Source: Taiwanofungus camphoratus
Lineage: Eukaryota; Basidiomycota; Agaricomycetes; Polyporales; Taiwanofungaceae
DNA length: 64,000 nucleotides
Assembly: GCA_003999685.1 (NCBI GenBank)
Contig: CP021230.1
Span: 868,001-932,000 of the forward strand
Direction: 5' to 3'
Position numbers and translations under genes: made by a program. Shown piece after piece: positions 2,655-36,613 of this stretch (positions within the stretch are counted from its first letter, which is position 1; each line of letters starts with the position of its first letter). The notes beneath the pieces were generated by a model. The model made no database searches, had not been told where the DNA came from, and saw nothing but the letters and a program-made list of their open reading frames with translations.

Positions 2655-4475
2655 GCTTAAACAGCAACTGGCACCCCTACGGCTACATCTCTCAAAGCAT
2701 GACAGCTGCAGAATGAAACTATGATGTATACAACCGAGAACTGATGGGGGTTATGCAGGGACTCAACGAATGGAGCCATCTTCTTATTGGAAGCCTGCAC
2801 CCAGTAACGATTTATAGCAACCACAAGAATCTAACCTACTGGAAGAGAACTCGAAATGTCAACCAACGTCAAGCATGATGGGCCCTACAACTCTCAGAGT
2901 TTGACTATCGCTTGGTCCACGTTCCTGGGTCACAAATGATCCAAAGCGATGCCCTTTCCCAACAACCTGACCATGACAACGGATCATCAGACAACCAAGA
3001 TGTCACTATTCTACCGGACAATGTCTGGGTATCTGCCATTGACATAAACCTTCGTGCTTCTGTCACCGAAATATGTGCAGATGACTCACTCTACATGGAG
3101 GGCATGAGGAACGCAAAAGAGGGCCCCAACGATCACCGGTCAATCCTGGACAGAGACCTTCTCTATGACAATAAAGCCTACATTCTCATGGACAAAAAAC
3201 TCTGACAAAAGGTTGTATCCAATTATCATGACCTGCCCTCAGCTGGACACCCCAGCATCCAGAAGACACTTGGACTCCTCCATCATGACTACTGGTGGCC
3301 GAGAATGGCAGACTTCCTTGCCCGCTATGTCAAAGGCTGTGGAACCTGTCAACAAATGAAGGTAAACACTCACTTTACACGGCCAGCCCTCCTCCCGATC
3401 AAACCAACAAAACATGCCACTCCATTCAGCACATTTTGTTGCGACTTCATCACCGACCTCCTGGTCTCAAATGGCTTTGACAGTATTCTGGTTGTTGTGG
3501 ACCACGACCTTACAAAGGGGGTAATTTTCATTCCATGCAACAAAACAATTGATGCATCCAGAACAGCCGAAGCCTTGTACCAAGAAGTCTACAAATGGTT
3601 TGGCCTACCAGACAAGATGATCAGTGATCGAGGACCCCAATTCACATCAAAAGTCTTCCAGGAACTATGCCAAATGACAGGGGTAAAATCCACAATGAGC
3701 ACAGCATTCCACCCTCAAACAGACGGAGAAACAGAGTGTGTCAATCAAGAGCTGGAGATCTACTTGAGATGCTTCATGAGCAACAACCTGGATAAGTGGT
3801 CCTCCTTACTAAGTACAGCACAATTTGCTCACAATTCCAGGGAACACTCTGCCATCAAATCCTCACCCTTCAAGGTGATGATAAGATTTGACCCTCGAGG
3901 AATCCCCACCATACACCCAGGAACAGACATACCAGGTGCAGCATATCGGCTAAAGAACCTACAAAAAATCTGGGAAGAGGCTCATTCAGCAATGGAACTT
4001 GCACAAACCGTGCTCACAAAATGTGTAAAACCCCATGGAACAGGGTTTCGTAAAGGTCAGCAGGTTTGGTTAGACTCACAAAACCTAAAGCTGCCATACC
4101 CATCCAGAAAACTGGCCCCTAGACGAGAAGGCCCTTTCTGAGTCACAGAAGTGTTAGGCCCAGTCTCTTACAGGCTAAAACTCCTCGAGTCATGGCGAAT
4201 ACACCTGGTCTTTCACACTACTCTTCTCTCACCCTATTCAGAAACAGAGATCCATGGGCCTAACTAAATGAGGCCACCTCTGGAGCTTATCGATAGAGAA
4301 GACAACTACAAAGTAGAAGCCATCTCGGGAGAACTTACGGAGAAACCGCTGCAAGTATAGGGTCAGGTGGAAAGGCTACTTGTCAGCCGATGATTCATGG
4401 GAACTGAAAGCCCACTTAACCGAAACTGCAGAAGAGACCCTGGAAGCATATAAACAGAGAAAGAACCTGAGTTAA
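2655..4475 (+). mobile_element. Decayed Ty3/gypsy (chromovirus-type) pol remnant
   Basis: Plus-strand remains of a retrotransposon polyprotein in normal order. RNase H lies from about 2665 (HPYGYISQSMTAAE, then YNRELMGVMQGL). The HHCC zinc-binding integrase N-terminus is near 3220-3355 (YHD..GHP..CGTC). The integrase core is near 3430-3800, with DFITDLL, a DRGPQFTS segment and HPQTDGETE. A chromodomain follows near 4300-4470 (VRWKGY, WELKAHL). Gag, protease and reverse transcriptase are missing upstream, where the tandem array begins. Stops at 2716, 2878, 3203 and 4139 all fall where Arg is expected, and the chromodomain contains a frameshift. It is not functional. Confidence 0.88.
3305..4258 (+). 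pseudogene. Integrase core of the gypsy remnant, broken
   Basis: The longest open piece of the retroelement (278 residues, 3305-4141) carries the end of the zinc finger (CGTCQQMK) and the rve-type integrase catalytic core. Asp residues are visible in the CDFITDLL and SDRGPQFTS segments, and the conserved HPQTDGETECVNQELE motif carries the final Glu. A TGA at 4139-4141 sits where Arg is expected (PF[16 protein letters not shown]), and homology continues beyond it to about 4258. In a live element this enzyme would insert the reverse-transcribed copy into chromosomal DNA. Confidence 0.85.
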
Positions 4476-7553: not shown

Positions 7554-8091
7554 TGAAACAATTACCTGCATTATGCTTACCTCATAGACTCTGACTTGTA
7601 TCAGGCCCCACTTACACATTCCCCTACACATACTGATTGCTAATATGGCCTGATGACTCATATCACCTTTGTACCATTAGTTTTACCACTTGACAGACCC
7701 CCTGCCCTAGTGTAGTACTTGGTCCGTGCTCATTGCTTGTATTAGTATATATAGGCATGTATTAGTTAGATCGAACTATAAGTTCAATCTGGGTACCATA
7801 TTGTATTCATGTCTTGCTACCGCTTCGCTTGACACCTTTGAAACTTCATGCTACTCGGACTGTATCGTCCATAAGTCCTCACCACCCTCTGTCAGGCCCC
7901 GCATCGGATAGCGGTCCAAGATACCAATTTGTATCACACTGTATCACTGCTACTTTATTCCTATGGGTTATATTGGTTATTCTGTCTACTTACATGCAGG
8001 CTAGAATAAGCTGTGTTATTATGTACTGTATGCTGCTACAGATACCCTCAAGGGTTGTGTATCTGTGCTGCTGATGTTGTCCTATCCACAA
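7554..8091 (+). repeat. Candidate LTR (3' or solo)
   Basis: A purine-rich tract (AGTAGGGGGG, 7541-7550) just precedes a TG at 7554-7555. A CA at about 8090-8091 could be the other end. Inside are a TATA-like stretch (AGTATATATAGG, near 7747) and AT-rich sequence without ORFs. The layout fits a 3' LTR after a polypurine tract, but no matching 5' LTR was found in the window, so both boundaries are guesses. Confidence 0.35.
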
Positions 8092-8261
8092 AAGACAATC
8101 CAGCCATCTGAGCTTTTCCACCCTCTTGCCAGCAACCTGTCACTCATGTACAAACTGATCAGTCACCAGTAGGTCCAACACCAACATTTTGACTTGGTCA
8201 TCACATGCCATTGATCAATACCACAGCAATGATCATTCACAGAGCAGCACGTTGGTAAACC

Positions 8262-10239
8262 TTACTGCTCCTTTACCTCAGGCTTGCCATTGATCACCAG
8301 GCATTCCAACTCAAACCACTCAGACATCTCCAAGCGCCGTAAGAGCACCTCATCGATTCCACTTGATGGTGTGAGCACACCACCACCATGTGCGAGTTCA
8401 GGGAGCGTGGGTTTCTCGAGCAGCAGGGCCAATGCAGGCTCGGCTACCATGACTGTTTTCCCGCAGATTGAATATGTGGTGATGTATGTACGGACAATCA
8501 AATTGGGGAATATGGCGAGCAGGAGAACGACACGACGTACTCGATGTCAGGAGGTAGCCCGGGTCCCCGCGCCCGCGCAGCACTGTCTTGACGTGTACCT
8601 CGGACATGCCATCACTCGGCACGAATGACGTATAGTTCGTTGCTTCCAAGAAGTCGCTTTCCATCAACCTGAGAACACCGAATCAGACATTTAACATTGA
8701 CATCACAGACCCGAAGAAATATACCTTTCCGAAGGTCCCTCACCAGACTGTGGCATGAACCACTGGAGCACCCAACGCACTTGCCAATGGGCCAAGATTA
8801 TGTCAGTCATTGAGACTCAATTGACTTTGAAGCGCAAAACACAGGCGATGACACACCTATCTCCGGGAGTAAGACGAATATCGCCAAGCCAAACAGGTAG
8901 GCCAAGTTCAGCAGCACCGCCGGCATGTACCCACACGCCGCCGCCGGGAGGGCCCAACATCCGTCATATGTGAAATGCGAGCCATACGCGTGCTCACCCG
9001 CTCGTTCCTTGTCCTGTCCTAGTGACATGTGCGAAGGGGAGACCGCAGCAAGCGCACGCAGGCCCCAATGTACGCTGCACAACCGCACGGTTCGCACGTG
9101 CTATCGGGAACGTGATGGCAAGCTCAGGTGGCGACGTGAATGGGATGGCGTAGCACAGCCCGGGCTGCAGGCTCGGCGTGCCTTGCACTGCTGCAGCGAC
9201 AAAATGAGCAATCAGTTACCGGTGGGATCAGCATGCAACACGAGATGCATGGTACCGGGGCTCAGCCCACAGTCGCCCATCGCCCGCACGATCTTGTGCC
9301 GCGGGACATCCTCGAGCAGTGTGAGCACTGACGCGAACGTCCTGCCCGACACGCCGCCCTGCGTACGATATACCGTTAGCGAGCCCCCGAGGCCGGCAGG
9401 CTTGAGGGCCGCATGCGCCCGCATGACAAGTAGATCTGCGGGAACGGAGCCGAACCACTATGATTGCGCCCATCTTGGATGCGCGGTAGTCGAACCTGAG
9501 GAAAACCGGGTAAACACTTCCACGCCGTTGTATCAGTCTGAAATGGGATCTAGATGCACAGTGCATACTACCAATGCATTTAACAATTCGGGTAGTAAGC
9601 AACAAATCTCAAAGGATGGCTCTCGATAATTGATGGGCTGCAAAGGCTGCAATTCAGCCTGAGTACGTAGTCCTGACTATTCGGGACCATTGGTACCTCC
9701 TTCAGTGACAACGGCTAAACCAAGCACAGGAGGAAAGCTCGGGCTCAGAGGAGGGCTGAATGCTGATGAGAACATGACCGCTGGACTAGACTAATCCCGT
9801 ACAATCGTTGTGAACTTCAAACCACCCTCTGCTCACCTGTCGATCATCTCCCTGATTCATGGCGTCTCCCCGGTGAGGTCAACATAATGCGCCCCATGGC
9901 GGGCACACGTCCTTGACGCCACAGCCTTAGCGCAGTGGAGCACAGCACAACTCACGACCTCTGTACCCCATCGCCAATACGGCCCGACGGCGCTAATCAC
10001 GACCTTCTCCAGACCTGCGCAGGCTGCGTGACGTCTACATGCACGGTGAGAACGCGCTCGTCGAGCGCGAGGCTCTGCTTGAGCGCGTCCAGCTTGGAAG
10101 GCGAGCGCGCCGCGATGCCAAGCATGAAGGACGTGCGCTGTGGGTGATTAGCTAGGTATCGTGTAATGAAGCGGCCTCTAAAGCCTGGTGAACGAGATAT
10201 ATGGGCTTGTGTGCGAATTGGCAGACTAGCAGAATTCAC
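8262..10239 (-). pseudogene. Saccharopine-dehydrogenase-like (SCCPDH family) oxidoreductase, dead
   Basis: Reading the minus strand from 10239 downward, fragments of one NAD(P)-binding oxidoreductase appear in order but in shifting frames. They are an N-terminal Rossmann piece (GRFITRYLANHP, LGIAARSPSKLDALKQSL); RHGAHYVDLTGETP; TVYRTQGGVSGRTFASVL with DVPRHKIVRAMGD; AIPFTSP with ANRAVVQRTLG; and GDPGYLLTS then ALALLLEKPTLPELAHGGGVLTP near the C-terminus. A TGA at 9857-9859 replaces the Trp expected after GETP, several frameshifts separate the pieces, and the start of the nucleotide-binding loop is lost. The family is usually membrane- or lipid-droplet-associated. The assignment is from recalled family motifs. 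Confidence 0.8.
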
Positions 10240-11122
10240 CTGTTGCGCCTATCACAAGGATGTCCGTCATGACTTCTATGCGACTCAGGGGTGGGGTGAG
10301 CCTGTGATTAGGGAATCAGGGAAAATTTGGAGATTATTACGGCCAGGCTCGTAGTGGATGAACAAAAGTATCGCAAGTTAAAATCGCGGTGCAGCGCGAT
10401 ACTGATAACAAGTCGCGTCCGAGTGTGAATCCAAAGACGCGACGCGACGGTGCACGTGCCGTGGTACTAGCGAAACACCGTGATCAACGTTTCGAATGAA
10501 TTTCAGGTCCATCGTCCTGCTCGTGTGGTCTGCGGAATACGGGTCGTACGGAACTGTGCAACCTAACCTTCATTCATGTTGTCACGAGTAGGCTTTTGTT
10601 CAATCGTCGCGCATGGCCGAGACGACTGATTGACAAATTGAGAACCTCGAGTCAGCCATAAGCTATCTATTGGGGAAGCACTGACCAAATATCTATCGGT
10701 AAGTCTGCCTAGCCAGGAACTGGGGTTTCCATTCGCTGTTTTTCGACAAGAATTTCGCAGGGTTCGCATTATGTAGAATCCCTACATGTCGCACAACCTT
10801 TATTTCCGATGGGTCGGTTCTGGGCGTAAATCAGGCTTGCTGTCCACCAGACTGGGAGCGTACATATGTCATTATTGATAAGTTCACCTGCTCACCTGCA
10901 CTGAAATATACAAAGCTGAGCAGCGCTGCACCATGAACTCTACGAACTTCTTTTCTGTTGTGGCAGATCAACAACTAATCATTGGTAGGTGCTAATTGTT
11001 CGTTGACCAACTCCAATTGGAAACAACCCCACGAGCCTTGCCTTCCAGGACTAATACTTTGAGACGCTGTTTCCCAAACTCTCCGTGCAAACCGCCCGCA
11101 TAGTTGAGAGAGAGTTCTTGCA
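10240..11122. other. Non-coding; upstream region of the first FAD-oxidoreductase copy
   Basis: No gene seen. From about 10690 the sequence matches 22988 onward (for example the shared TTTCCATTCGC, ATGTCGCACA and GCAGATCAACAACTAATCATTGGTA stretches), so the promoter region was duplicated along with the FAD gene. The first 400 bases match nothing else in the window. Confidence 0.7.
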
Positions 11123-12800
11123 ATGGCAGCTCACGGTGTGGCGCCATTGGTAATTCCGTCGTCAACACTGCTTCGAGCTCAAGTGCTGTACGACGACTCA
11201 CGCTCCACGGTCAGAGGACCTGTCTGCCGTCCATCTGACGCAGCATACGTCTATTCAATGCTCCAACAAGGCCACTCTGATCACACGATGGCGCATTTTC
11301 TCATCCTGTGCTCGATTCCTGCCCGAGACTTGCGGGGCGCTCCCAGGACGTCGAGGTCGCTCTCGCGCGCGCTCGTCTTCCCCCCGGCGCGCACCGTACT
11401 TCGCTGCTGTACGTACGAAGCACACGCTCTCGCCCTCGATCCGTGCGGGTGGGTGCGGGGTCGCCAGCATGCTGGAAGAAGTCGACACCGAGCCACCACT
11501 TGAAGCGCCCGGCGGAGAGAAAGACTGGACGCAGCTCAGAGACATGCCGCCTCCGGAGAGCAAGGGCAGGGGATGCGCCGGGACAGTGGCTAGTAAATGT
11601 CGGTTCGATCGTAGCAAATGCTGGCACCACTACTGTCGCTCAAACTCCTTCTGCTCGGATGACGCCGCGTCCTACACTGCTGTGTCGTTCCTCCGTGTCC
11701 GCCCCTGCCGAGAAAGGGCAGACGCCGATAGGATCTCCCCTGTACTCCCCCCGAACCGCCGGCGGCTCAGGACGAGGCAAATTTCTTCCCCGAGGAAGTA
11801 CTTACCGGAGGAGTATGCGCATGAGAAACTTTGCGTGCTTGTGGTTGGAGACATGTCGCACGAAACGCCACGCGACTACGCGTCGTCTACGGCGGCCAGC
11901 AGCAGCCACCACTTCGGGATCTGGGATCGTCGTCAGCATCGCATAAAACAACACCTACTACGCGAGTGACGGCTAGCCCGGAGATGAGCCGAAACAAAGA
12001 CTTTGCGGATGAGTACTACAGTGCAGGAGCTTTTTGGGAACGTGGCATCCAATGATGCACCTGGTAACTCGTTCCAGTTCACATTGATTTTGGGTGCAGG
12101 TTCCAGCAGCTCGATGTCTACGGCGACGCCACCGCCTCCATGTCGATGCCCTTCTCATCTGGATCGTCTTTTTCCAGTCTAAACTCATCTTCCGTACCGC
12201 TGGACCCTATGTTTAGGCAGGGCAACCTCGGTGGCATGACGCCCCCGATGTCTGCATACGGACATGCATATGTCGCCTTCTGCGCTGGGATGCGGCAGAA
12301 GAAGATGTGACATGTACACCGCCGAGCGTCTCCTCGAGGGGATCGGCGAGGTCCAAGACTCAAGGGAAGACAGTGGTGCCGTACCGCACGCCATCGTGAG
12401 TGGCACTGCGATCCTCAGACTAACTCTGTGTTGGTGATGAGCCGACATGCTGCGATCGTCGTCTCTGGCTCTCCCCAACTTGTGGGTTCCTCGATCATCA
12501 TTACTCGAGGGCTTCGGCTTCCTCAGTCGCATGTACGGCTTGAGCGTCGACAACTTAGTTGAGGTGGACATGGTCCTTGCTGATGGACACATCGTCACTG
12601 TTAGTGAAGAGGTTGTTCCCGGTGAGATGAAACCGGCTCCAGTTTTATTTTAAATCAATATGTGCAGATCTCTAGTTGGCTGTAGGTCCTGCTTCTGATG
12701 AACGGTGTAACGCCAGAGTTTTTCCTGACCCGGTTGTCTTCGCCGAGAATCCTAATGTAGCATGTATTTGTGTTCAGCGAAAATGATAGCACATACAATC
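11123..12800 (+). pseudogene. FAD-linked oxidoreductase, copy A (truncated and frameshifted)
   Basis: Homologous to the fuller copy at 23411-26454. The start (MAAHGVAPL..., with VRGPVCRPSDA) aligns with 23411. The middle is in broken frames with internal deletions, and it includes the DIEPPLEA-like block as TEPPLEAPGGEKDW near 11485. The end matches the GFGFLSRMYGLSVDNLVEV block at 12517-12660. Homology stops near 12800, inside what is the third intron of the full copy, a few bases from the stop codon of the minus-strand NTPase-nuclease gene. The C-terminal substrate and BBE region is absent. It cannot encode a working enzyme. Confidence 0.8.
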
Positions 12801-12804
12801 CCAA

Positions 12805-15800
12805 CTACGATGTAACTACGTCTTCGACTTTGTCAGTGTCGTCAAATCTATAATGTAGACGCGACTCGAGGATCCAGTCATAACAATCTGTGTTGCGGTC
12901 AAACTCAGGCTTGAACCGGCGCACTGCACTAAGAGCTTCAGGAGTTTGCCTTGGATGCTCTGCAAAAAAGCCGCGGGAGTCCAAAAGATGAGCGTAGACG
13001 TCTTTGCTCTGCACCACCTTGTACACTGAGGGTGAGCAGCCGTAGATGTGAATTACGTAGCGTGGATGATCAGACTTGCCCCTCCGCGAGCTCCTTGTCT
13101 TCGTGGTAATCTTCGATGGACTCGGGGGTGGCTTCTTGGGCTTCATCAGAGCAGGAGGTTGCTCAGTGAATTGTTTCTTGTAAGCCTCCGTCTGGAGCCC
13201 TAGTTGCATATCTATCGTGATATATGGCCGACCATCACTCGCCAGGAAAAAAGGCGCATCATCGTTGTTGATTTGCTTTTCGTTAATATCAATCACGTTA
13301 CGTCCCTCTTTGTCTTTGACCTGGACCAGTATGCATGACATCGACGTATCGTCCAGGAGCGTGTCTGACATAGCAATCGGTATCATCGCGTCAATGCTCT
13401 TATGATTGTGGTGTACTTGAAGCGCCATCCCACGAGCAATGCATGCATATGCCGAAACACAGTCGATCGGGTTGTTTGACCCGTTCTGTGCGAAATGAGT
13501 GAAGCGCACATAGGCATCCTTAAATGCCTCCCGTAGTGTCTTATCACCTCCATCATTGTCCGCCTTGCTATCGAGCACATTCTCGATAAAGCCGTCCGAG
13601 ATGAGTGCTTCCAAAAAATCCACGACAGGGACACGGCGGCTGTAGAACGGCAATATTCCGTCTCGTGCGCAGCACTTCCTCACAGCGTCATCATATGCCA
13701 GCGTGAGCAGGAGACGCATGACAAGTTCGCCTCTATCACCCTTATTGACCAAACCGTCCTGGGTGTACCCTGTAAGCAACTTGGCAGCGGCGTCAGCCTC
13801 GCTTTCCGCAATGACAGCCATCTCTTGTGCTGCCGCTTCCGCGAGTATAGGCTCCGAAGGACTCCCCGAGCGAAGATATTCACGATGAACCGGGACGCTG
13901 TAAGCAATCCTCATGTTCCCCTCGACGAGCTGGTTCTCTAGTTGCCGTGCCGAATCTCGGGATGGTCCTACCTCGAGCAACAGTCGTGTGCTCAACGTTG
14001 AGAATCGTCCTCGCAGTACGAGGCCTACGTCCTTATGCAATTGGGGGATGTCGATCCTGCCGGTGAGCTTCGCCCTAGCATAGTGGATAATGGTTGATCT
14101 GACTGTAGTATTACCCGAGCGCCATGTCGCATGCCAACTGAGAATACAGTGTTCCAGAATCAGGGGACAACGCCATTATCATCAAAACTAAAGCAACTCA
14201 CAGAGGTCTGCCCATCTTTGCCATAAATTCAACTTGTGAAAAATCGTCAAGAGTCAATGTTCCAGGAACTACAATCGGTCGGTTGTCCACCAGACAATCG
14301 AATGAAAGCTCGACAAAAGGAGCTTGTAGGGCAGCTTCATCATTGACAACCCGGTTAGAACGATGCGCCGATTTCGAAGGAGCATGTTTGCTCAGATTCG
14401 ACTTGGTCGACAACGTAACGACAAACAACTGTGCGACATTGGTCAGGTGTGTCAATGCTTTGCAAAACACATCGAAGCAGTTGAGTCCTGTATTATTGTT
14501 CTTGATGCCCTGATCTGAAAGTGTGTGCGCCTCGTCGAGGTAAATCATCAGGATCACTTCAGTAGCTTCAAAATGCCGCCTTGTCCGCGACTTGATGAGC
14601 TCAACAAGCTTGGTGGCTTCGTCACAAGCCTCCTTAGATAGAATTCCATATGGGTCCTTCGTTTTGAGTACTTCCGTAAGCTCGGCCTCCGCATCCTGTC
14701 GAACATTGATATACACTTTGTGATCAGGACAGTAGGACAGATGCTTACCGCCACAACCTTACTATACAAATTATCGCGCACAGCGTGACCGTCGCGATCC
14801 AAAAGATTCCGCCATGACAAGGCCAATGTTTCCCCATCTTTCACTTCTTCTTGAGCTTGCAGGAACATAGCAGTTTTCGCAAATAACCATTTGAAGAATG
14901 CAAGGCATGCAGTCAGCGTCTCCCTCTCATCACGCTTCCCGGTCAGATAATCACGGACTTTATTGTCGGGTGGAGGGTATGCAAACTCTGAATGCAATGT
15001 CAACACAAATGTTGTCATGGGATGCTAAATCTTTCTACCTGACTTGCCGTCTTGTGCACGGACATTCAACGGTAGTGTGAATATCAACCCAGCAGCTTCA
15101 TGCACCGTCCGAGATTTGCCTGTTCCAGAACTTTGTATAATAGGAACATAGTTGGCATAGGCAGTATCTTTCCGCCCGGCATTCATGGTTTGTATGGTTC
15201 GAACAAGAAGACGATGCGCCCCTCCCACAAAAGGTGTCTCCCATGCCATCATAGCCGCTGGTAGCAAGTGTTAGTAAACAAAGTAGAGTATGGCTATCGT
15301 GCATGTTTACCTTCGCCTGAGAGTTAACAATGAGGCGTCAGCCTCGGTATTGCGGGAACACTTGTACTACTTACGCTGGTCTTCCAAACTGAGGCCAGAG
15401 CTCCACGTTTGTACTCCTTGCACGATTTCTGGTGCTATTGCGTTAGCCAGCTAGCCAGGGTGGACAGGTGCTCATTGGAAGCAACTCACTCAACTGGCGA
15501 ATTATCTTGAGGGAACCTGATCGCCAAGCAGCTTCCACGAGTTCCTTCAATCCTTGATGAGACTCGCAAAGTTTGAGGGCTTCCAACGGATTCTGATAGA
15601 CCTGATTCAAGCGACTATCGTAGGCCACAATCATTTCGATCACCGTGTAAGCAGGGCGGTCATCCTGAGGCCTTCCCAATGCACGATAAACCTTTGCATC
15701 CTGATTACGATGCTGATCGTCAGTGAGATCCGAGTTTGCAGTGACCCGTTCAAGGGATGTCTTCTGCAGAAGGGCATCGAGGTCGATAGGCTCAGGATGC

Positions 15801-16214
15801 AGGATTGCTGCAGCGGACGTTAGCTTTTGAGTACAGACCGCTGATAAAGGACAAACCTAGCTGACGGATTTCTTTCAGGGAACCCGACCTCCATGCGCTC
15901 TGTATAAGCTCATCCAGATTGTTGTGTTCTTGAATAAATGCCTCAGCCTCATCTATAAATGCGAGGTCGCGTAGAAGACGTTGATCGAAGCGAACGATGG
16001 CACAGAGAATACGAGGAGAGTCCACGGTCCTGTGTTGCCCACCCAACTTCTTGTATATCTGCTCATCAAGCTCTCGATGCTGTTCATCGGTTAGATCACT
16101 GGCCTCGCTGATATGTGCAAGGTCGAAAGTCATTTTGGGCTTGACTCGTCTTGCAGTCGAAGCAGAATCTTCAACTGGTCGTTTGTTTGTACTGGTTTTG
16201 GGTTGAGAGTCCAT
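12805..16214 (-). CDS. CR/Crinkler-like P-loop NTPase-nuclease protein, copy A
   Basis: An eight-exon model with introns at 15808-15856, 15435-15489, 15317-15374, 15258-15310, 14988-15038, 14696-14748 and 14138-14201. It leaves 3027 nt, exactly 1008 codons plus stop, all open. Two copies of an N-terminal module (LTD-x-QHR ... AWRSGSLK-x-IRQL) occupy roughly residues 45-120 and 140-225. A Walker A-like IQSSGTGKSR lies near residue 290 and a Walker B VILMIYLDEAHTL near 455. After an MGRPLW block, the last 410 residues include IDAMIPIA and ILVQVKDK about 20 residues later, as in PD-(D/E)XK nucleases with Glu replaced by Gln. The architecture recalls fungal Crinkler-type effectors: NTPase plus nuclease, with no signal peptide. 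Start MDSQPKTS was chosen to match copy B; an in-frame Met at 16256 is the alternative. Function is inferred. Confidence 0.8.
15311..15316 (-). other. Six-nucleotide microexon in copy A
   Basis: GCGAAG on the minus strand, between a 58-nt intron (15317-15374) and a 53-nt intron (15258-15310), both with GTAAG/GTAAA donors, CTAAC-like branch sites and YAG acceptors. Including it restores the frame (EDQ-R-E-AAMMAWE). The equivalent in copy B is ACAAAG at 21383-21388, flanked by introns of 58 and 53 nt. The residues differ but the length and phase are conserved. Confidence 0.7.
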
Positions 16215-16259
16215 GTAATTCGTGTGATCAGCTCCTGACCCATGTTTTAAGCCCACCTA

Positions 16260-18060
16260 GGACGTGGCCCGTCGCATCCAGTGGCCACAGGCCTTGGCCA
16301 CTTATTGGAAAACAACAAATCAGGGCAAACACATTGACATCGTTTCCGCCCTCGATTCATTTCACCGTCGGACTAGACCACCACATAGTTGCTTGTACGT
16401 CGTCATTACAGCAAGCGAATCTAGTTTGACCTCCCAGCACTGGCAACTTCATCCACAGTGACATTTCTAACCAATCTCGCATCAGGTCTGTGCACGCAAC
16501 ATGGTGGTTATTCTTTACACAGATATGGTGGAGACCATACAGGGAATGTTATCCAGCCATTCCACCATCTCCTACCCTCCGACGCCCATCCTCGCGTCCG
16601 CAGCCGCTAGATCTCTCGGAGCTGCAGAGATCCCTATCCAGTGTGCGTGCGCTGTTCCACTCCTCCCGTGTCCTAGCCCCGCTGCCACTGCCGCCGACTG
16701 GCCTTCGGGTCTTTGCCACGATGGGCCCAGGTATGGTTCAGCACATGGTGATGTTCGTATTCTAGGTCTGCGCTCGCGGGGTCGGGGTCGGCCAAGCAGC
16801 CCGCAGGCTGCGGGCCACAGACTACAGACCATCTCATCTAAGCGCATACCACTACACTGTGCACAGGTCTCGAGATCTCTTGTCGTTCTCTTTCCTCTCC
16901 TCTCTCCTCTCACTTCACCTTCTCACAAAATCCGAGACCCCGAGTTGAACCCCATGCACTGCGCCCGCTCTATATAACATATCCGATCAGTACCATGACT
17001 ACCGTCGCCGGCACGCGCTCTCCGAGTTGGAGGACTGACTCTGCCAGGACGGTGACTGAGAACGCAGCGAAGGGTGCAAGAAGAGTGTGGGAAGCCTGAT
17101 AAGCCTCCCGCCCGCTCCCCAGTCATGAGACCTCGGTGTGCACGCTGAACGCTGAACGCTGAACTCGTTTATTGTCTCTCGATTTGTGAGCTCATGGCGT
17201 ACATTGCTCAGGATGGGTTGGACATGCGTGAACACTAAACACTCTGCAGCGCGAGAAGCTGAAGCTGTACGCAGTTTCGGCTTTGGGTCCCTGGTCTTGA
17301 GTTTCGAGCTCCGGGTTCCGGGTTGCGAGTTGCGGGTCCCCGATGTCACTACTTCTAAGGCTTCACCGCCGCTCGAGTTCGAAGGGTGTCGACTCTGACT
17401 CTCACGCCCGCGATCTTGGGCTTCTAGTCCAATGCCTTTCGCGTGTGAGAACACCCCGTATTATGCCTACATCGCCGGCGAGCTTGTGCGGGACACCTTG
17501 CTCTGCGTGCTGCAAGTTAGCGCTTCGATGTTCCAGCGGCTCAAACTCGCGAAGCGGACGTCCGTGTGCACGTAGCCACGCGATGACGGCGTCCCTCCAC
17601 GATCGCTGAGTCCTGAGTAACCGTGTCTTCCCCCTCCACGATGGTCACTACATTAGGCGATCGACGATTGGTGTCACATCCGTGCGTCGAGTTTTGGAGA
17701 TCGCGCTTCAGATTCGAAACGCGGGTTGGATGGTTCAGCAAGGACCCGCGCCACTTCCTCCCCCTATCATATACATAAATTCGGTTCCAGTCCACACTCA
17801 TCCTCTTGCCAGAAGCGCGAAGCGGTACGTGCGCCAGGGCAGACGTCAAATGAATCCAGGGGGTCCAGCTTGACCTTGGGACTTTCGCAACAAGTCTGCG
17901 AATAGGCTTCGGTGACTATGCAGTTTGAATCGATCGGTCCTGTCGCCAGGTGTAAGTACACGTTCAACCGGAGGCAATTACCGGAGTGCATTCGAATTCG
18001 ATAAATGTAAATCAAGTGTCAAATGTATGAGCGAGCGAACGATCGCTGAGGCAATAGTTT
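16260..18060. other. Spacer between duplication units
   Basis: No credible gene. The many ORFs on both strands share low-complexity Ser/Arg/Pro composition and lack recognisable domains. Local short repeats include three GCTGAAC units at about 17145-17163 and GGGTTCCGGGTTGCGAGTTGCGGG-type repeats around 17310-17340. Nothing here matches the flanks of unit A or the region after unit B. Confidence 0.6.
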
Positions 18061-18900
18061 GACGGCCAGCCTGGAGATAAGCCGAAACCAAAAAAGTGCT
18101 ACTTACAGTGTAGGAGCCTTTTGGGAACATGACGTCCAATGCACCTGACCCAGCGGTAACTCGTTCCAGTCCACATTGATTTTGGGTGCAGGTTCCAGCA
18201 GCTCGATGTCTACGGCGACGCCACCGCCTCCATGTCGATGCCCTTCTCATCTGGATCGTCTTTTTCCAGTCTAAACTCATCCTCCGTGCCGCTCGACCCT
18301 ATGTTTAGGCAGGGCAACCTCGGTGGCATGACGCCCCTGATGTCTGCATACGAACATGCATATGTCGCCTTCTGCGCTGGGATGCGGCAGAAGAAGATGT
18401 GACATGTACACCGCCGAGCGTCTCCTCGAGGGGATCGGCGAGGTCCAAGACTCAAGGGAAGACAGTGGTGCCGTACCACACGCCATCGTGAGTGGCACTG
18501 CGATCCTCAGGCTAACTCTGTGTTGGTGTTGAGCCGACATGCTGCGATCGTCGTCTCTGGCTCTCCCCAACTTGTGGGTTCCTCGATCATCATTACTCGA
18601 GGGCTTCGGCTTCCTCAGTCGCATGTACGGCTTGAGCGTCGACAACTTAGTTGAGGTGGACGTGATCCTTGCTGATGGACACATCGTCACTGTTAGTGAA
18701 GAGGTTGTTCCCGGTGAGATGAAACTGGCTCCAGTTTTATTTTAAATCAATATGTGCAGATCTCTAGTTGGCTCTGCGGGATGTAGGTCCTGCTTCTGAT
18801 GAACGGTGTAACGCCAGAGTTTTTCCTGACCCGGTTGTCTTCGCCGAGAATCTTATATAGCATGTATTTGTATTCAGCGAAAATGATAGCACATACAATC
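18061..18900 (+). pseudogene. FAD-linked oxidoreductase, copy B (3' fragment)
   Basis: Nearly identical to 11968-12800 (a handful of differences per 190 bases where I compared directly). It carries the remains of the Ser-rich insert and the GFGFLSRMYGLSVDNLVEV block at 18609-18700. The 5' half of the FAD gene is missing altogether, because the duplication edge lies at 18061. Like copy A it ends at the stop codon of the neighbouring minus-strand gene. Non-functional. Confidence 0.82.
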
Positions 18901-18904
18901 TCAA

Positions 18905-21900
18905 TTACAATGTAACTACGTCTTCGACTTTGATAGTGTCGTCAAATCCGTCTTGTAGACGGGGGTCAAGGACCCAATCATAGCAGTTCTTGTTGCGCTC
19001 AAACCGGGGCTTTAACCGGCCCACTGTACCAACAGCTTCGGGAGTTTGCCTCGGATGCTCTGTGAAGAGGTTACGGAAGCTCAAAAGATTTGCGTAGACG
19101 TCTTTGTTCTGTACCACCTTGTACACTGAGGGTGAGCAGCCGTAGATATAGATTGCATAGCGCGGATGATCACGCGAGCCCCTCGGTGAGCCCCTTTGCT
19201 TCGGATTAATCTTCAACGGAATCGATGATATCTTGTGGGGTTTGGGCAGAACAGGAGGTTCCTCGGTTGATTGTTTCTTGTAAGCCTGCATTCGGTACCC
19301 TAATTGCATATCTATCGTGATATATGGTCGACCATCATCCGTTGGGAAACAAGGCTCATCGTCATTGTTGACCTGCTTTTCGTCAATATCGATGGTTTCA
19401 ACCGCCGCCTTGTCTTTGACCTGGATCAATATGCATGACATCGACGTATCGTCCAGGACCGTGTCTTCCAAAGCAACCGGTATCATCGCCTCAATGCTTT
19501 TATGATTGTGGTATATTTGAAGCGCCATCCCGCGAGCAATGCATGCATATGCTGAGACACAGTCGATCGGGTTCTTTGGCCCGTTCTGAGCGAAATGAGT
19601 GAAGCGTACATAGGCATTCTTGAATGCCTCCCGTAGTGTTTTTCCACTTCGGTCATTGTCCGCCTTGCTATCGAGTACATCCTCGATAAAGCCGTCAGAG
19701 ATCAGTGCTTCCAAAAAATCCACGACAGGGACACGGCGGCTGTACACGACCGGCGAAATTCCGTCTCGTGCGCAGCACTTCCTCGCAGCACTATCATACG
19801 CCAGCGTGAGCAGGAGACGCATGACAAGTGCGCCTCTATCGCTCTTGTTGATCAAACCCTCATCAGTGTATGACAAAAGTAATCGGGCAATAGCGTCAGC
19901 CTCGCTTTCCGCAATGGTAGCCATCTCTTGTGCTGCCGCTTCCGCGAGTAAAGGTTCCGAAGGACTCCCCGAGCGAAGATATTGGCGATGGGCCCCGACG
20001 CTATAAGCAATCCTCATATTCCCCTCAACGAGCTGGTTCTCCAGTAGTCGTGCCGAACCTCGCGATGGTTCCAACTCGAGCAACAGTCGTGTGCTCAATG
20101 TTGAGAATTGTGCTCGCAATAATTTACCCACGTCGCGTCGCACTTGGCGGACTTCGAACCTACCGGTGAGCTTCGCCCTAGCAAAGGATACCATGTTTGA
20201 TCTGATTAAAGGAATTTCATCACCTGAGCACCATGTCGCATGCCAACTGAGAATACGATGTCCCAGAATCAGGAGATACTGCCACTATCATCAAGATCAA
20301 AGCAACTCACAGAGGTCTGCCCATCCTTGACATGAGTTCAACTTGTGCGAAGTCGTCAAGGGTCAATGTTTTCGGAACTACAATCGGTAGGTTGTCCGCC
20401 AGACAATCAAATGAAAGCTCGACGAAAGGAGCTTGTAGGTAAGGTGAAGTATCTACAATCATGTTCGGCGGAGAGGCCCATCCTGAACGAGGTTGCCTGC
20501 TCAGGTTGGGCTCGGTCGACAACGTAACAACAAACAGCGGAACATCGGTCAGGCACCTCAATACCCAGCAAAATATATCGAAGCGGTTGTCTCCCAGAGT
20601 GTGCGCCTCGTCGAGGTAAATCATCAGGATTACTTCTCCAAACTCAAAACGCCGCTTTGTCCGCGACTTGATGAGCTCAACAAGCTTCTCGGCTTCGTCA
20701 CAAACCTCCGTATATAGACTTCCACGTGGGTCCTTCGTTTTGAGTACTTCCGTAAGCTCGGCCTCCGCATCCTGTCGAACATTGATATACACTTTGTGAT
20801 CAGGACAGTAGGACAGATGCTTACCGCCACAACCTTACTATACAAATTATCGCGCACAGCGTGACCGTCGCGATCCAAAAGATTCCGCCATGACAAGGCC
20901 AGTGTTTCCCCATCTTTCACTTCTTCTTGAGCTTGCAGCAACACAGCACTATTCACGAACAACCACTTGAAGAATGCAAGGTATGCGACCACCACGTTTG
21001 TGGCATTAGTCCTAGTCAGATAATCACGGACATCATTGTCGGATGGAGGGTATGCGAACTCTGAACGTGGCGTCAATACACTTTTATCATGGGATGCTGG
21101 ACATTGCTACCTGACTTGTCGTCTTGTTCATGGATATTCAACGGTAGTGTGAATATCAACCCAGCAGCTTCATGCACCGTCCGAGATTTGCCTGTTCCAG
21201 AACTTTGTACAATGGAAAGATAGTTGGCATATCCGTCAGTTCTCCGTGTAGCATTCATGGTTTGTATGGTTTGAACAAGAACACGATGCGCCTCTCCCAC
21301 GAAAGGTGTCTCCCATGCCTTCACATTCGCTGTTGACCAGTGTTAGTGCGTAGAATGGAGTACAGCTATCATGCATGTTGACCTTTGTCTGCGGGTTAAA
21401 ATTGAAGCATCAGCCTCAGTGTTACGTGAAAACTTGTACCACTCACACTGGTCTTCCGGACTGACACCAGATATCCACATATCATGGTGTAAGATTTCTG
21501 GTGTTACTGCATTAGCCAGCTGGTCACGGTGCATAGGTGTCCGTTAAAGCAACTCACTCAGCTGACGAATTATCTTGAGGGAACCTGATCGCCAAGCAGC
21601 TTCCACGAGTTCCTTCAATCCTTGATGAGACTCGCAAAGTTTGAGGGCTTCCAACGAATTCCGATAGACCTGATCCAAGCGACTATCGTAGTGCACAATC
21701 ACACAGATCACCACCGTAGCATAGAGGTCGCCCTGAGGCCCGCCCAAATCACGATAAACCTTCGCATCTTGATCACGATGCTGATCGTCAGTGAGATCGA
21801 AGTCTGCGGTGACCCGTTCAAGGGATGTCTTCTGCAGAAGGGCATCGAGGTCGATAGGCTCAGGATGCAGGATTGCTGCAGCGGACGTTAGCTTTTGAGT

Positions 21901-22273
21901 ACAAACCGCTGATAAAGGACAAACCTAGCTGACGGATTTCTTTCAGGGAACCCGACCTCCATGCGCTCTGTATAAGCTCATCCAGATTGTTGTGTTCTTG
22001 AATAAATGCCTCAGCCTCATCTATAAATGCGAGGTCGCGTAGAAGACGTTGATCGAAGCGAACGATGGCACAGAGAATACGAGGAGAGTCCACGGTCCTG
22101 TGTTGCCCACCCAACTTCTTGTATATCTGCTCATCAAGCTCTCGATGCCGTTCATCGATTAGGTCACTGGTCTCTCTGATATGTGCAAACTCAAAAGTCA
22201 TTTTAGGCTTGACTCGTCTTGCACTGGTAATTGGTCGTTGAGTTGTACTAATTTTGGTTGACAGTCTGTTCAA
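18905..22273 (-). CDS. CR/Crinkler-like P-loop NTPase-nuclease protein, copy B
   Basis: Paralogue of 12805-16214 with the same seven intron positions: 21876-21924, 21507-21557, 21389-21446, 21330-21382, 21061-21110, 20772-20824 and 20247-20310. The exons sum to 2991 nt, or 996 residues plus stop, open throughout. It has the same duplicated N-terminal module, VQSSGTGKSR, VILMIYLDEAHTL, MGRPLW, and a C-terminal AMIPVA...ILIQVKDK. Exon 1 and the intron-6 region are almost identical to copy A, while the C-terminal exon has diverged clearly. Both copies being intact beside dead FAD fragments suggests selection to keep them. Family assignment rests on motif order, not on a search. Confidence 0.8.
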
Positions 22274-23410
22274 TCGTCTCGGTCACGTGAGGGCAATTGA
22301 ATAAGAAATGGAAAACACCCCGAGTCTAATTCAAATAGTAAAGTCGGCCACGAGCCGTCTCCTCAGCTAAGTACATCTGTGGCAATTTCGTGCTAATTAT
22401 GAGGTCTTTGCCGTCCCTTATTCAGTGTATATGTACCACCCTCACGGTGTCCTTATCAACCGAACGACATAGGGCCGCGCAATATTTCAGAGCCTGGCGC
22501 GGATGGGCGTTCCAGGATATCTCAGCGTATGTTTCGCAAAGACACAGACACAGACTCAGTGACATGTCGGGAACTATTTCCAAGCTATTCAGCACGCAGG
22601 CGGAATGTTAAGTAGAAAGTGGGTGTCACTTCTTTGGACGTCCCAATTTCGATTCGTTTTCACGCCAATTTCCGGACATGGACAGAGATTCGTCCCATCT
22701 TTCGTACCTGTCTCGTCACGCAGTGGGTGAATAGCTAGCTTAAATTTGATATATCAATCGTCACACCCCACTTCGACATGCACCCTGTCTACCTCCGGCC
22801 AAGTGTAACTACATGCGAATACGGCCCACGCTCCGTACGTATATCCATGACTATCGGTATTGCTGAAGACCGTGCGCCGGATGTTCGATGCATCCGCCGG
22901 CGCCGTGTGTGATATTCTCATACCGCGCGGTCCCCTATGAATTTCGCACCCGAAGTTACGGACTAGGGAAGTCCAAATGTCCATCGGTAAGTGTGCCTAG
23001 CCAAGAAATGAGGTTTCCATTCGCCGTTTTTGAGAAGAATATCATGAATGATGGCGGGGTTCACATTATGTATAATCCTTACATGTCGCACAGCCCTTAT
23101 TTCTGATGGATCGGTTCCGAGCGTGAATCAGGTTTGCTGTTCGCCAAACTAGGAATGTACGTATATGCCTATTTATAAATTTACCTGTGCTGAAATATAT
23201 AAAGCTGAACAGCACTGCACTATGAACCTTACGAACTTCTTTTCTATGTGGCAGATCAACAACTAATCATTGGTAACTGCCAATTGTTCGTTGACTAACT
23301 CCAATTGGAAACGAATCCCACGAGCTTTGCCTTCCAGGACTATATAAAGTTGAGGTGTTGTTTCCCAAATCCTTTGTTCAAACGGCTCGCTTAGTATAGA
23401 GCGTCTTGCA
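22274..23410. other. Intergenic; includes promoter region of FAD copy C
   Basis: No gene seen. 22274-22980 has no counterpart in the window. From about 22988 the sequence parallels 10690-11122 and leads into the start of the FAD gene, with a TATA-like ATATATAAAGC at about 23197. Confidence 0.6.
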
Positions 23411-23581
23411 ATGGCAACTCGCGGTGCGGCACCATTGATAGTCCCGTCGTTCAAACTGCCTCAAGTGCTGTACGATGAATTGTGCTCTGCGGTCAGAGGA
23501 CCTGTATGCCGCCCATCCGATGCAGAGTATGTCTATTCAATGTTCCCAAGAAGCCACTCTGACTACACGCTCTAATATCGC

Positions 23582-26454
23582 TTGTTTTCTCAACGTCTGC
23601 GAAATCCCTCCCAAAGATTTGCCGAGCGTGCTAGGACGTTCAACGGGAAGCTGAAGTCTCTCTCGCGCGTGCTCGTCTCCCCCCTTGACGCGCACGACGT
23701 GAGCACTGTAGTCCGCTTCTGTACGAAGCACAAGCTCTCGCCCTCGATTCGTGCAGGTGGGTATGGGATCGCCGGCTGGTCGGTCGCGGGCGACGTCATT
23801 ATCGACCTGAGCATGCTGAAAGAAGTCGATATCGAGCCACCACTTGAAGCGCGCGATGGAGAGAAAGACTGGACGCGGCTTAGAGACATGCCGCCTCCGG
23901 GAAGTAAGGGGAAGGGCCGCGCCGAGACAGCGGCTAGTAAGAGAGCTGACAACGTTGGTTCAACCGTAGTGAATGCTGGCGCGACTACTGCTTCTCAAAT
24001 CCCTTCTTCTCAGCTGGACAGGTCGCAACTAACGGCGGGTGTAAAGCGGCGGCGCGAAGAGAGCGAGGGGACGCCTGATCGTGATCCGGGCGTCCTCTCA
24101 GCTGACCAAGCAAAGCGGAACCATCTGCACTCATACGATGCTGCGTCCTACACCGTTGCGTCGTTCCTCCGTGGCCCGCCCCTGCCGCCTGAGGCAGGGG
24201 AGACGCCGAGAGGACCTCCCGTGCACCGCCCGAGATTGCACTCTCCTGAGCCGCTGGCGTCCCAAGACGAGGCGACGTTCCTCCCTGAGGAAGTGCGGGA
24301 GGCTCATGCACAGAAGGAACCGCGTGTGCCCGAGATTGGAAATACGTCGTACGAAACGTGGAGCAATTCAGCGTCGTCTATGGCAGCCAGCAGCAGCCCG
24401 AGCTCCGAGTTACTGTCCGCTTCGGGATCTGGATCGTCATTGGCAACGCATGGCACATCCGTTACTACGCCGCTGACAGCCAGTCCGGAGATAGATTCAA
24501 ATAAAGATGCTGCTGAAAGCACGGAGCAGAAGCCCTTTGGATACATGACGTCCAATGGTCCGCCTGAACCGCACGCCCCAATGTATAGCGGTGGTAACCC
24601 TTTTCAGTCCGCATCAATTTCGGCTGCAGGTTCCAGCAGCTGGACGGCGCCGACGACTACAGCGCAGCCTACTGGCCACTCTCCCCGGACCACGATGCTA
24701 GGAATGAACATGTCGATGTCCTTCCCATCTGGATCGTCTTTTTCCAGTCTAAACCCATCATCCTCCATGCCGCTCGACTCTATTTTTGGGCAGGGCAACC
24801 TCGGCATGGCGCCTGCGAAGCCCATACACGGACATGCATATGTCACCTTCGGCGCTGGAATGCGGCAGAAGGAGATCGACATGTATACCGCTGAGCATCC
24901 CCTCGAGGGAATCAGCGGCGTCACTGGCTTAAGGGAGGACGGGATGGTGCCGTATCACATGCCTTCGTGAGTGGCACTGCGATCCTACTTGTATGTTCCG
25001 GTACTTGATGTTGAACTGACGTGCTGCGATCGTCGTCTATAGCTCGGCGCATCCGGTGGGCTCCTCGATCATGCTGCTAGGGGGCTTCGGTTTCCTCAGT
25101 CGCATGTACGGCTTGAGCATCGATAACTTAGTTGAAGTAGAGATGGTCCTTGCTGACGGACGCATCGTCATTGTTAGCGAAGAGGATGACCCTGGTGACA
25201 GTGAATCGGTTCCGATTTTATTTCATTTTCTAATATAAATTTGTGCAGATCTTTGGTGGGCTATGCGGGGTGCAGGCCCAGCTTTTGGTATTGTGACAAG
25301 GTATAAAGCCAGAGCTTTCCCTGTCCCGGTTGTCTTTGCCGGTAACCTCATATAGTATGTATTCGTATTCGTGTTCCCTCGATGACCGCATACGCTCCTT
25401 ACATTCGTACAATGCTTCTGACATCGGCGTCAATGTTCTAACATTTCATCTCATAGCCGGTTTCATCGAGCGACCGCTCCTTCACTCATCAAACATTTCC
25501 GCGACTGCATCAAGGGAGCGCCGCGTGAACTTTATGCTAACGTGCTCCTCACTGCCGGACCAGCAGACAAAGACTCGCTTGTCGTGATCCAAATGTGCTA
25601 CGTAGGGCCGAAGGAAGAGGGCATGGTATACCTACAGGCAATCTCAAGTTGGGACGGCGAACGCTGTCTACTGAATGAGGTGAACGAGAAGAGCTTCTTG
25701 AATCAGCAGGACAGTGTAGCTCAGGTTTTGCGAGGAAAGGGTATGTCCCTGGTCGTGTCCTTCGGAGAATAGGCTAACGACTCGTTTTGCAGCGGGACGG
25801 CAGTGGTTCATTCGATCATCCTTGATTCATTCGCTTCCGGACGAAGTGATCAACAAAACTGTCATCCAATTTGCCAACACCCCAATCGGCTGCAGTGAGC
25901 ATTCTTGTTGTCCTTAATCTGTTTCTGTTGCTCATAAGTAATACCTTTCGCTTCATAAATATAGCATGGTTATTCGAGCTGGCCGGAGGCGCAATTCTGG
26001 ACTTTGAGGGCACGTGCTTACCCAAACAGCAGCGCGAAGCTACTTGGACAGTTGCTGCACTACATCAGTGGGAGATGGGCATTGATGACCCGCGCTGCAT
26101 CACTTCCGCAGAAGAGGTACATACATGGCATTATTAGATGACTGTGAGTCACGATACTGACGACTCGCCAGTGGATGAACGGCACAATCGGCACTGTTGC
26201 ACTCGGCGGGCCTTATCCTACTGTGAGTGCCAACACTTGTATTCTCTGCGAAACAAAACCAAGGCAGCTATTAGTTCCTGGGTCGACATGAGCCGCCGGC
26301 TCGAACGATGGCATGTTACGGCAATAATTGGTCTCGTCTGGCCGACCTCAAGCGCCAATATGATCCTCTATATCTTTTCAAGAACAATCTGTGGCCCTTG
26401 AGTGAGAATGGCCAACCTATTGAATTTCTCACCAACGAGCCACCTTCCCCGTAA
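23582..26454 (+). CDS. FAD-linked oxidoreductase (PCMH/BBE type), copy C
   Basis: An eight-exon model with introns 24967-25042, 25195-25248, 25355-25456, 25741-25792, 25895-25964, 26117-26171 and 26223-26274. It leaves 2412 nt (803 residues plus stop). The N-terminal PCMH FAD fold (SIRAGGYGIAGWSVAGDVIIDLS) is split by a Ser/Pro-rich disordered insert of about 320 residues (about 90-410), then resumes (HAYVTFGAG, GGFGFLSRMYGLSIDNLVEV, LWWAMRGAGPAFGIVTRYKA). The C-terminal berberine-bridge element reads YGNNWSRLADLKRQYDPLYLF. The GGH histidine used for 8-alpha-histidyl FAD in many relatives is Tyr here. Homologous coding sequence also exists upstream at 23411-23545 (MATRGAAPL..), but in another frame, so the true N-terminus may be lost or frameshifted. 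Substrate unknown. Confidence 0.78.
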
Positions 26455-26736: not shown

Positions 26737-29700
26737 TTAGTCCACAGGAACAAGAAAACTGGCCAATGCCCATCCGATTTCCCCTGCGTAATTTCTCACA
26801 AGCAGGAGACAATCTTCGCCATCGTCAACGTAGAGTGGAAGGTCCGGGTGTGTAGATGGATGACCTGCTTCTTGCAGCACATCATAGTCATCATTTACAC
26901 GAAGCGTGAAAAAAGGTAGATCGCGGTACGAAACCCCGGGTGGTGGTTCGCATTTGTGAACTACCCTGCATATGTACATTGGAGGGATCTTTACACCCAT
27001 GCTTGGTCGCCTACTTGGTCGTTTGCTGGACGTTGGAGAGCCGTTCGTAAACGTAGAAGTATTCGGGGACGGCGAAGGTGATAATCCCATAGTATTCGTA
27101 GCAGGAAGGGATGGTGAGCGGCGGTGTCGAGAGTTCGATAATGTATTTGGGCGAAGTGTTTCCGTTAGTCTGCGCCTGAATGAGGGCTTCCGAGTGGGCC
27201 GGCCCCGATCAACAGCCTCCTGCAACTGGTCATAGAATGGTAGAGACGACAGCGGCTGAGGTCTGTGCATATTCTGGACATTTCGACTGCTACTGCTTGT
27301 GACAACATCGTCGTAGTGAGTATCAAGGAGACGGCCTTGGGAATAAGACTTCTTCAGAGGTAAGGCCCCAGAAATTGGCATACTTTTGGTCCGTGAATAC
27401 TTCGGCTTTGTATGTGAAGAATCCAGTGATGTCAACATGGTTTCATACCCGTATCCAATCTCATCGGGGATATAGTTGACGCTCTGGCTCGCATTATGCC
27501 CTGCAGACTTGGAAGATTTAAGAGACTTGCCAGATTTCTTGGAATGAAGGCTTTCAGCGGATCCTCGATGATCGAGAGCGCGGCGGCTGCCAAGTTCCAT
27601 CGAACGCACACTGCGACTCTTCCCGCTGACGGGGGTCTGAAGCGACTGTGAGGAAGGTGAACTAGGAGGCAAGTTGAACGGGTCTAGAGACGTCAGGATC
27701 GAGGAAACTATCACAGTCGAACTCGTCTCGCTCGCATCGTCGTCTAATGACCTTGACCAAGTCTTCGTCCTCGAGCGTGTCATCTCAGACGGCTGAATCT
27801 TCTCTAGCTGGCGTACTATGTTGAGCCCGGATGTCATTGTCTCTACCTCCGCAAAACGCCCCCACCACACTCTGAGCGTCTCCGTCGCACCAGCATTCAT
27901 TTCCCCATCAACCTTCAGCGCATCCCACAAGCCCATCCATTCATCTCGCACATCACCCCAGAACTTGCTCTGCCATCGCGCCAGCTGCAGTATATTCATC
28001 ATGATTCCTTTCTTCAGGAGCTCAAGATACTGCGGGAGCTCCGCGAAAAGCTGTGCGCGAAGAGCAACGTAGGATTGAGAAGCTTCCAGTAACTGTGGTG
28101 GCGGCCGAGACTTTGAAATATCAAAATTAAGTAGACCGTAGTGTAGCGGCTCCAGCGTATGCATAGCTTCGAGTAGACGGAGCGGAGCGAGCATTGAATC
28201 CACCAGTCTGGACAGCTGGGGAAGCAGATGTTGGTCAACCGTCACAGAGAGCTTGTCGCACTCCTTGATCAGCCCCTTCGTGACGACGTCCAGGAACGCC
28301 TCGAAGGCCTCAGACTTCGGTTCCTGTGATATCCAGATCACGCGCCCAAAGCTGACTGACCAGTCACGCAGCTGCTCCATCAGTCTATGCACAGTGTCGA
28401 CCCAAACGACCACGTCCTTCGCGAACGAGTGGATGAAGGTTTCACAACGTTTCATGTCCTCTGCCATTCGCTCGACCTGCTCCGCCTCCTGGTTAGCTTC
28501 TATCCCCTCCTTGGCCTTATACGACTTGGCGCCAATGCTTTTCACTCGCCCGAGACTCACAGAAGCCGCAACACCGACGTTGAGACCCTTTTTTTTGGGC
28601 TTCGCTTTCGATTCGCTACCCTTCTTACTCGGAGTCCCGGACGGAGTTCCTGTGAGCACCTCTTTGACAACCTCCCGTCTCCGCCGCCCTTCATTCACGC
28701 CCCGAGCTACCTCCTCCATCCTCTCCTTCGCCAGCTTCAGGTTAGCCTTATCGGAATGTGCATCAGGCGTCTCGTCGATGATGGCGCTGAGGAGGAGGGA
28801 GTATTTGAGCAGCCTCTGTACGGGCTTTATGAGTAATGAGGGAAGGTCCCATGCATGGGATAAGTTTGATGCAAGCGTGCGCGTGTGTGCGAGATAGGCG
28901 GTGAGAGCTGGAGAAGAGGGGAGATTGTTGAGGTGTTCAAGCGCAGATGGATGTTTGGTGATGTAGGATTTGTATAACGGTTCCAATGTAGGTATCTGCG
29001 GCACATGATCAGTAATTCTATCACAAGAGCAGCGCGCCTGCACACCATTTCTAGAAAGAGAGCTCCAACATGATCCTCGCCTGTCCCACCCTCCAGCACA
29101 GAACCTAGCGCCTCTTCGAGCTGTTCCGTGAACGTGTCAGAGAATACGGCAAGCTCCGCAATATTGTTAAAGATGATCCGCGTGTCTTCGCGGGTCATAG
29201 GTGGGCCAGTGGCAGACCCGTTCGAGGACTCTGACGCCGTGGAGAGCGTCCGCGACGAGGAAGCTGAGGAGCCTGACGATGGCGGCGTGTCATGCGCCGC
29301 CGGGTATGGAGCAGGCTGGCCTGTTGGGGGAGGGGTCAATCGCTATGCTAAAGCAGTAGACTCACTTCGCATTCATACCTAATGCCAGCGGGATGTGGAT
29401 ATCACGAATGAGTGCGAGGTCGGAAGCGTAAGCCCGCTCGGAGGAGAGCAGCTCGAGCAATGCATGGGTGCGCTTGGTGATGACTGGAGAGGTGCGCAGG
29501 AGGGGAGAGCCCGCAGAGGCGGATGCGGACGCAAACTGGGACAAAGACCCTTCGCGATCGTGATCGTCTTCAACAGGGGACGAAGAGATCGATGGATCGG
29601 GGGTTATAGGTAACGGCTTGTTGGGCGTGGGTGGACGTGCTGACCGTCTGAGATTAGAGCCAGATGACTGCGAGCTAGACGGCGGCGGTCCCGATGGCCG

Positions 29701-31857: not shown

Positions 31858-32569
31858 AGTGCAGGGTTTTCACTCAATAGTGTCACGTAATCAAGACCGA
31901 AAGCCCTTATCGAGGGCCATTTTTAATTCGCCATGAGCAATGAACGGCTTGGCCCTTGGTGGACTACCATATCTGGGACTTCATATATTCCCTAAGTCCC
32001 GTTTCGCAGTTGTCAGCTAGCCCCCGGCTCAGCTGACACACAAGGCATTGAGCACGAGCATGCGGCTCTGTGTATTACACACTTGTTGGCCGTATATTAG
32101 GGTCTGCATAACGAGTGGTATTTAGTGTAAACCTCCATTAGATAACACCATCCTCGTAATGAACCGAAGGAATTGAATTGGGCAGGCAGTTACCGTGTGG
32201 ACTGGTGCCGCCTCTCTACCTACTTATAGTGTTTTCTTCCGTCTAGATCTGTCTTCGAGCATAGACCATGGTCACCGCTGTTTCGCACAGGGAGACAGAA
32301 CGGACCGAGTGCCTGATACGCACTCCGTAACGGATCAATCTTGCACGTGAAGTCTTGGCATAGGACGTGTTGTAGTGTCAATCGCTGTAAAGGCTACGAC
32401 GTCGACCACCATGGTGTATTGAAAATTCCAGTGTACTCGTGCACACACGTTTGCGACAAGGATCCGGTTTCTGCATTTTATTTGGCTTTCTGATTTCTGA
32501 TTTCCGTAAGTATGGCACATTTTCCGAGATTATGATTTACATTGCAAGTGCTGCAGATTCCCCGGCGAA
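31858..32569. other. Divergent intergenic region
   Basis: Between the minus-strand acyltransferase and the plus-strand Ca2+ ATPase. No gene found. It presumably carries both promoters. Confidence 0.5.

Positions 32570-36613
<4,044 letters not shown>

Follow-up and report, generated by a model that had tools for sequence, protein, structure and literature searches.

Cassette exchange in the N-terminal header of tandem Crinkler-like NTPase genes of Taiwanofungus camphoratus

Relation to described systems

In Crinkler-type (CR or CRN) proteins with NTPase and restriction endonuclease (REase) C-termini, an exchangeable N-terminal header precedes a P-loop NTPase, and a REase-like domain comes last. 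In Avs3, which like CED-4 and the plant NRC proteins is a STAND NTPase, the nuclease is N-terminal. In fungal NLRs with hypervariable repeats (HET-D, HET-E and the NWD family of Podospora) variable modules on a STAND-like switch are exchanged among members of the gene family, with concerted evolution (PMC4986451). Their variable part is a long C-terminal array of WD, ANK or TPR repeats, and Pfam detects NACHT or NB-ARC. We have analysed two tandem genes, A and B, on the minus strand of a stretch of 64,000 nucleotides of the wood-rotting mushroom Taiwanofungus camphoratus (contig CP021230.1, positions 868,001 to 932,000; hereafter the window).

The window genes resemble the Crinkler-type proteins in having a P-loop NTPase ahead of a putative REase-like domain and in their exchangeable header. 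They differ in that the header is a duplicated helical module, where the ubiquitin-like header PF20147 is carried by two of the 66 relatives that share the body, both from Psilocybe cubensis. They also differ in showing no sign of secretion (no hydrophobic N-terminus was found by a simple scan, no dedicated signal-peptide predictor being applied), and in that all of the named relatives found are basidiomycetes. Unlike Avs3 the window genes place the nuclease-like domain at the C-terminus, and TPR, WD or ANK sensor repeats were not reported by a Pfam scan of P0001, the deposited counterpart of A. In contrast to the HET-D, HET-E and NWD proteins, their variable part is a two-module N-terminal header, and neither NACHT nor NB-ARC is among the Pfam families of the 66 relatives at E ≤ 0.01, where there are just a few weak AAA matches.

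Exchange of cassettes between copies

The preliminary description of this DNA recorded only two copies, but the genome contains at least seven. Five (A to E) are on the contig C11, which includes the window genes, and two are on C9. Copies A, C and D are almost identical from exon 3 onward. Header module 1 contains a cassette of ~150 bp that exists in two deeply diverged types (dS ~1.2) with sharp edges, and these types cross the body types; A and B have type 1, while D and E have type 2. Across C11, a patch in module 2 has three types, one in A, one shared by C and D and one shared by B and E. The variable sites of the two modules correspond in position, and the stretches of header adjoining the cassettes are unchanged between copies. 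Cassettes have been exchanged across body types. Copies A and D provide natural proteins that differ almost solely in codons 51-100 and 171-193. Assembly error as the source of the variable header was dropped, because the copies have different flanks and the proteins of strain V5 also carry the type 1 cassette.

The swapping of an N-terminal piece suggests that it is the N-terminal end of the protein that does the recognising. Among the relatives, different kinds of header are found on one type of body, and header and body are modular and recombine. In other species the header diverges faster than the body in 13 of 15 scored pairs, although these are not mutually independent and gene models tend to err at N-termini. 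Searches of open-licence papers gave no title that deals with the exchange of headers in CR-like proteins of basidiomycetes.

Gene structure, motifs and predicted fold

Both genes can be opened as eight exons without in-frame stop, one exon being a micro-exon of 6 nt, with GT..AG introns of 49-64 nt (Table 1). Deposited proteins of strain V5 match A (P0001, 1006 aa, 99%) and B (P0002, 970 aa); RNA-seq was used in making the deposited annotation (PMC8865532). The tandem pair of genes described previously, readable as eight exons with open frames, is borne out, as is the order of motifs in both (duplicated N-terminal module, QSSGTGKSR, LDEAH and D/E...QVK). The proposed lengths of 1008 and 996 residues need revision. 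Copy A has 1008 with the acceptor that we use for intron 2 and 1006 with that implied by the deposited protein, while B has 972, since position 22273 is TTG and the first in-frame ATG (the start also used by the deposited protein) is at 22201. Similarly, the intron positions claimed to be identical agree with the deposited acceptor, but with ours intron 2 of A and that of B end at positions that differ by one codon. The DNA upstream of B is unrelated to that of A (45% identity) and the similarity stops at 22223, so B does not have the first 27 residues of A. We considered whether B is a pseudogene, and dropped this because its frame is open and its start is the same as that of the deposited protein. 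Nevertheless, while both frames are open, the description of both copies as intact is doubtful for B; at the putative catalytic position it has Glu, and of the 61 relatives with an aligned residue there 58 have Asp.

Table 1. Features of the two window genes (positions in the window)
Feature	Position	Strand	Basis or remark
Gene copy A, 1008 aa	12805..16214	-	spliced reading; V5 counterpart P0001
Copy A exons	16214-15857, 15807-15490, 15434-15375, 15316-15311, 15257-15039, 14987-14749, 14695-14202, 14137-12805	-	
NLS (nuclear localization signal)-like stretch, A residues 11-27	16134..16184	-	seen as a pattern match only; copy B lacks it
Header module 1, A ~residues 41-123, spans intron 1	15797..16094	-	N-terminal profile; low pLDDT (predicted local distance difference test) in model
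Cassette 1, A codons 51-100, type 1 (D, E type 2)	15915..16064	-	comparison of copies
Header module 2, A ~residues 147-225	15490..15727	-	helical in model; N-terminal profile
Variable patch of module 2, A codons 171-193	15587..15655	-	comparison of five C11 copies
AAA+/STAND-like NTPase and helical part, A ~residues 252-677	13801..15246	-	predicted model and fold comparison
Walker A QSSGTGKSR, A residues 289-297	15109..15135	-	motif conservation
Walker B YLDEAH, A residues 452-457	14525..14542	-	motif conservation
Putative PD-(D/E)XK-like nuclease domain, A ~residues 779-950	12982..13497	-	
Putative catalytic Asp814, A	13390..13392	-	conservation among relatives
Putative catalytic Q837-V-K839, A	13315..13323	-	conservation among relatives
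Gene copy B, 972 aa from first ATG	18905..22201	-	spliced reading; V5 counterpart P0002
Copy B exons	22201-21925, 21875-21558, 21506-21447, 21388-21383, 21329-21111, 21060-20825, 20771-20311, 20246-18905	-	
Cassette 1 of copy B	21983..22132	-	same sequence as that of A despite diverged bodies
Glu778 of copy B, at near-invariant Asp place	19490..19492	-	alignment of relatives

The C-terminal body contains a P-loop NTPase, with conserved Walker A and B motifs and a corresponding fold in the predicted model. In the fold comparison of the model (VIA) the top structures are Avs3, CED-4 and NRC, alongside TnsC and ORC; the predicted fold is clearly AAA+ and possibly of the STAND class. Foldseek searches with both models gave no match at E ≤ 0.001 in the PDB or among viral structures, and a sequence profile search of the PDB gave a single unrelated match (E 0.19). 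The D...QxK set is conserved, and the proteins are putative ATP-driven nucleases. The Crinkler-type architecture is upheld for the P-loop NTPase and the recombining header and body, but PF20147 was not detected; Pfam found nothing above cut-off on single exons of the window genes, and P0001 did not match this family at E ≤ 0.01.

At least 66 relatives have the same body; this and the derived counts are lower bounds, since the database searches scored only those candidates with the largest numbers of shared words (7993 and 7996). A profile search for remoter relatives gave 12 rows, the seven new ones (P0067-P0073) being left out of all counts. Many named relatives are wood-decay or mushroom-forming species. 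A search of a large database with the header returned P0001 and P0002 only. Single-module relatives appeared only with an iterated profile run on those N-termini that have at least 30 aa (52 of 66), and their E-values hold for that small pool. In viral contigs there were 32 pattern matches, none of which was a relative by tblastn.

The two C9 paralogues (L006, C9:82707-85171; L007, C9:125609-128073) are ~57% identical over the C-terminal part. They retain the Walker motifs, have RVQ at the site of the nuclease QVK and give no match to the header; they could be decoys, regulators or decaying copies. A weak match to the C-terminal body at C2:3342010-3342689 (L045, E 3e-4) has in-frame stops and is likely to be a remnant.

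Possible function and alternative explanations

We propose that these are intracellular proteins of biological conflict, comprising a two-module helical recognition header, an AAA+/STAND-like NTPase switch and a PD-(D/E)XK-type nuclease, and assign this a probability of about 0.5. The earlier Crinkler-like conflict interpretation is partly supported. Binding of a partner or target by the header would release the NTPase, leading to ATP binding and assembly, probably within the cell or nucleus. Assembly would place the C-terminal nuclease on nucleic acid, and the ensuing cleavage could harm invaders or non-self nuclei, or else the protein's own cell. Swapping of the header cassette between copies would fit one body with different specificities.

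Alternatively the proteins might be exported toxins or effectors of Crinkler type, carried by their header into a different organism, or into a non-self hypha after fusion. The NTPase and nuclease would then act in the recipient nucleus, and header variation would reflect delivery or escape from recognition. The body shared with the PF20147-bearing Psilocybe proteins is consistent with this, and according to PMC5289972 more than a quarter of CR C-termini consist of NTPase plus REase, and recombination has a hot spot at the CRN N-terminus and its junction. Secretion could be non-classical. However, the window genes have neither PF20147 nor, by the simple scan, a hydrophobic N-terminus, and in chytrids only two CRN-like proteins had signal peptides (PMC5364385), so the CR label does not by itself imply export. 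We regard export as unlikely.

The exchange could also be neutral. Gene conversion would then act between tandem copies of a region that is rich in repeats and rearranging, one tract would happen to derive from a divergent allele or paralogue of old origin, and the header would simply be less constrained than the enzymatic parts. Segmental duplications and pieces of retrotransposons indeed crowd C11:655-893 kb, and the ratio of non-synonymous to synonymous substitution (dN/dS), ~0.5 for cassette 1, is already high in the bodies of A and B (0.46-0.71). Yet neutrality seems doubtful given the unchanged header beside the cassettes, the variation of both modules at the matching place and, with its reservations, the faster divergence of headers. 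That the genes are cargo or derivatives of a mobile element, spreading with it, is very improbable, as the duplicated blocks differ in length, include a fragment of a FAD (flavin adenine dinucleotide)-binding gene and share no common ends, and no inverted repeat pair of ≥40 nt surrounds the genes (shorter terminal repeats were not searched for).

The segmental duplications, direct and inverted, are dense around the gene copies, at C11:655001-715000, C11:775001-815000 and window positions 7940-25370, extending to 8.5 kb at 97-99% identity. A FAD-binding-domain gene (PF01565, 23576-24967) is oriented convergently with the array. Its region recurs, in diverged or partial form, downstream of A (10685-12775) and B (18060-18875), so the duplicated unit carried part of its neighbour along. 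A Ty3-type retrotransposon integrase (Integrase_H2C2, rve) lies at 3206-4138, with similar sequence several times at C11:656-715 kb, and self-comparison reveals a short tandem repeat array at 2191-2557 (unit offset ~34 nt). The flanking genes assigned by Pfam are ordinary: RhoGEF (26740-29136), penicillin acyltransferase-like AAT (30639-31337), P-type cation ATPase (32510-35565), CoA-transferase III (37024-37599), lactonase (41125-42090) and CDC20/Fizzy (54459-56273).

Returning to the intracellular conflict protein, we tentatively suggest a more specific role, which is possible but on balance not probable. The helical header might recognise non-self and gain new specificities as paralogues exchange a ~50-residue cassette, in a mushroom immune or allorecognition system that kills by its nuclease and resembles the fungal NLRs with their repeats by analogy, not by descent. 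The variable part can now be named, i.e. codons 51-100 and 171-193 of A, and since the natural pair A and D differs almost solely there, the idea that the header confers specificity is testable without new constructs. If it is true, the Crinkler-like NTPase-nucleases of mushrooms would be fast-changing intracellular weapons or sensors, and not leftover pathogen effectors.
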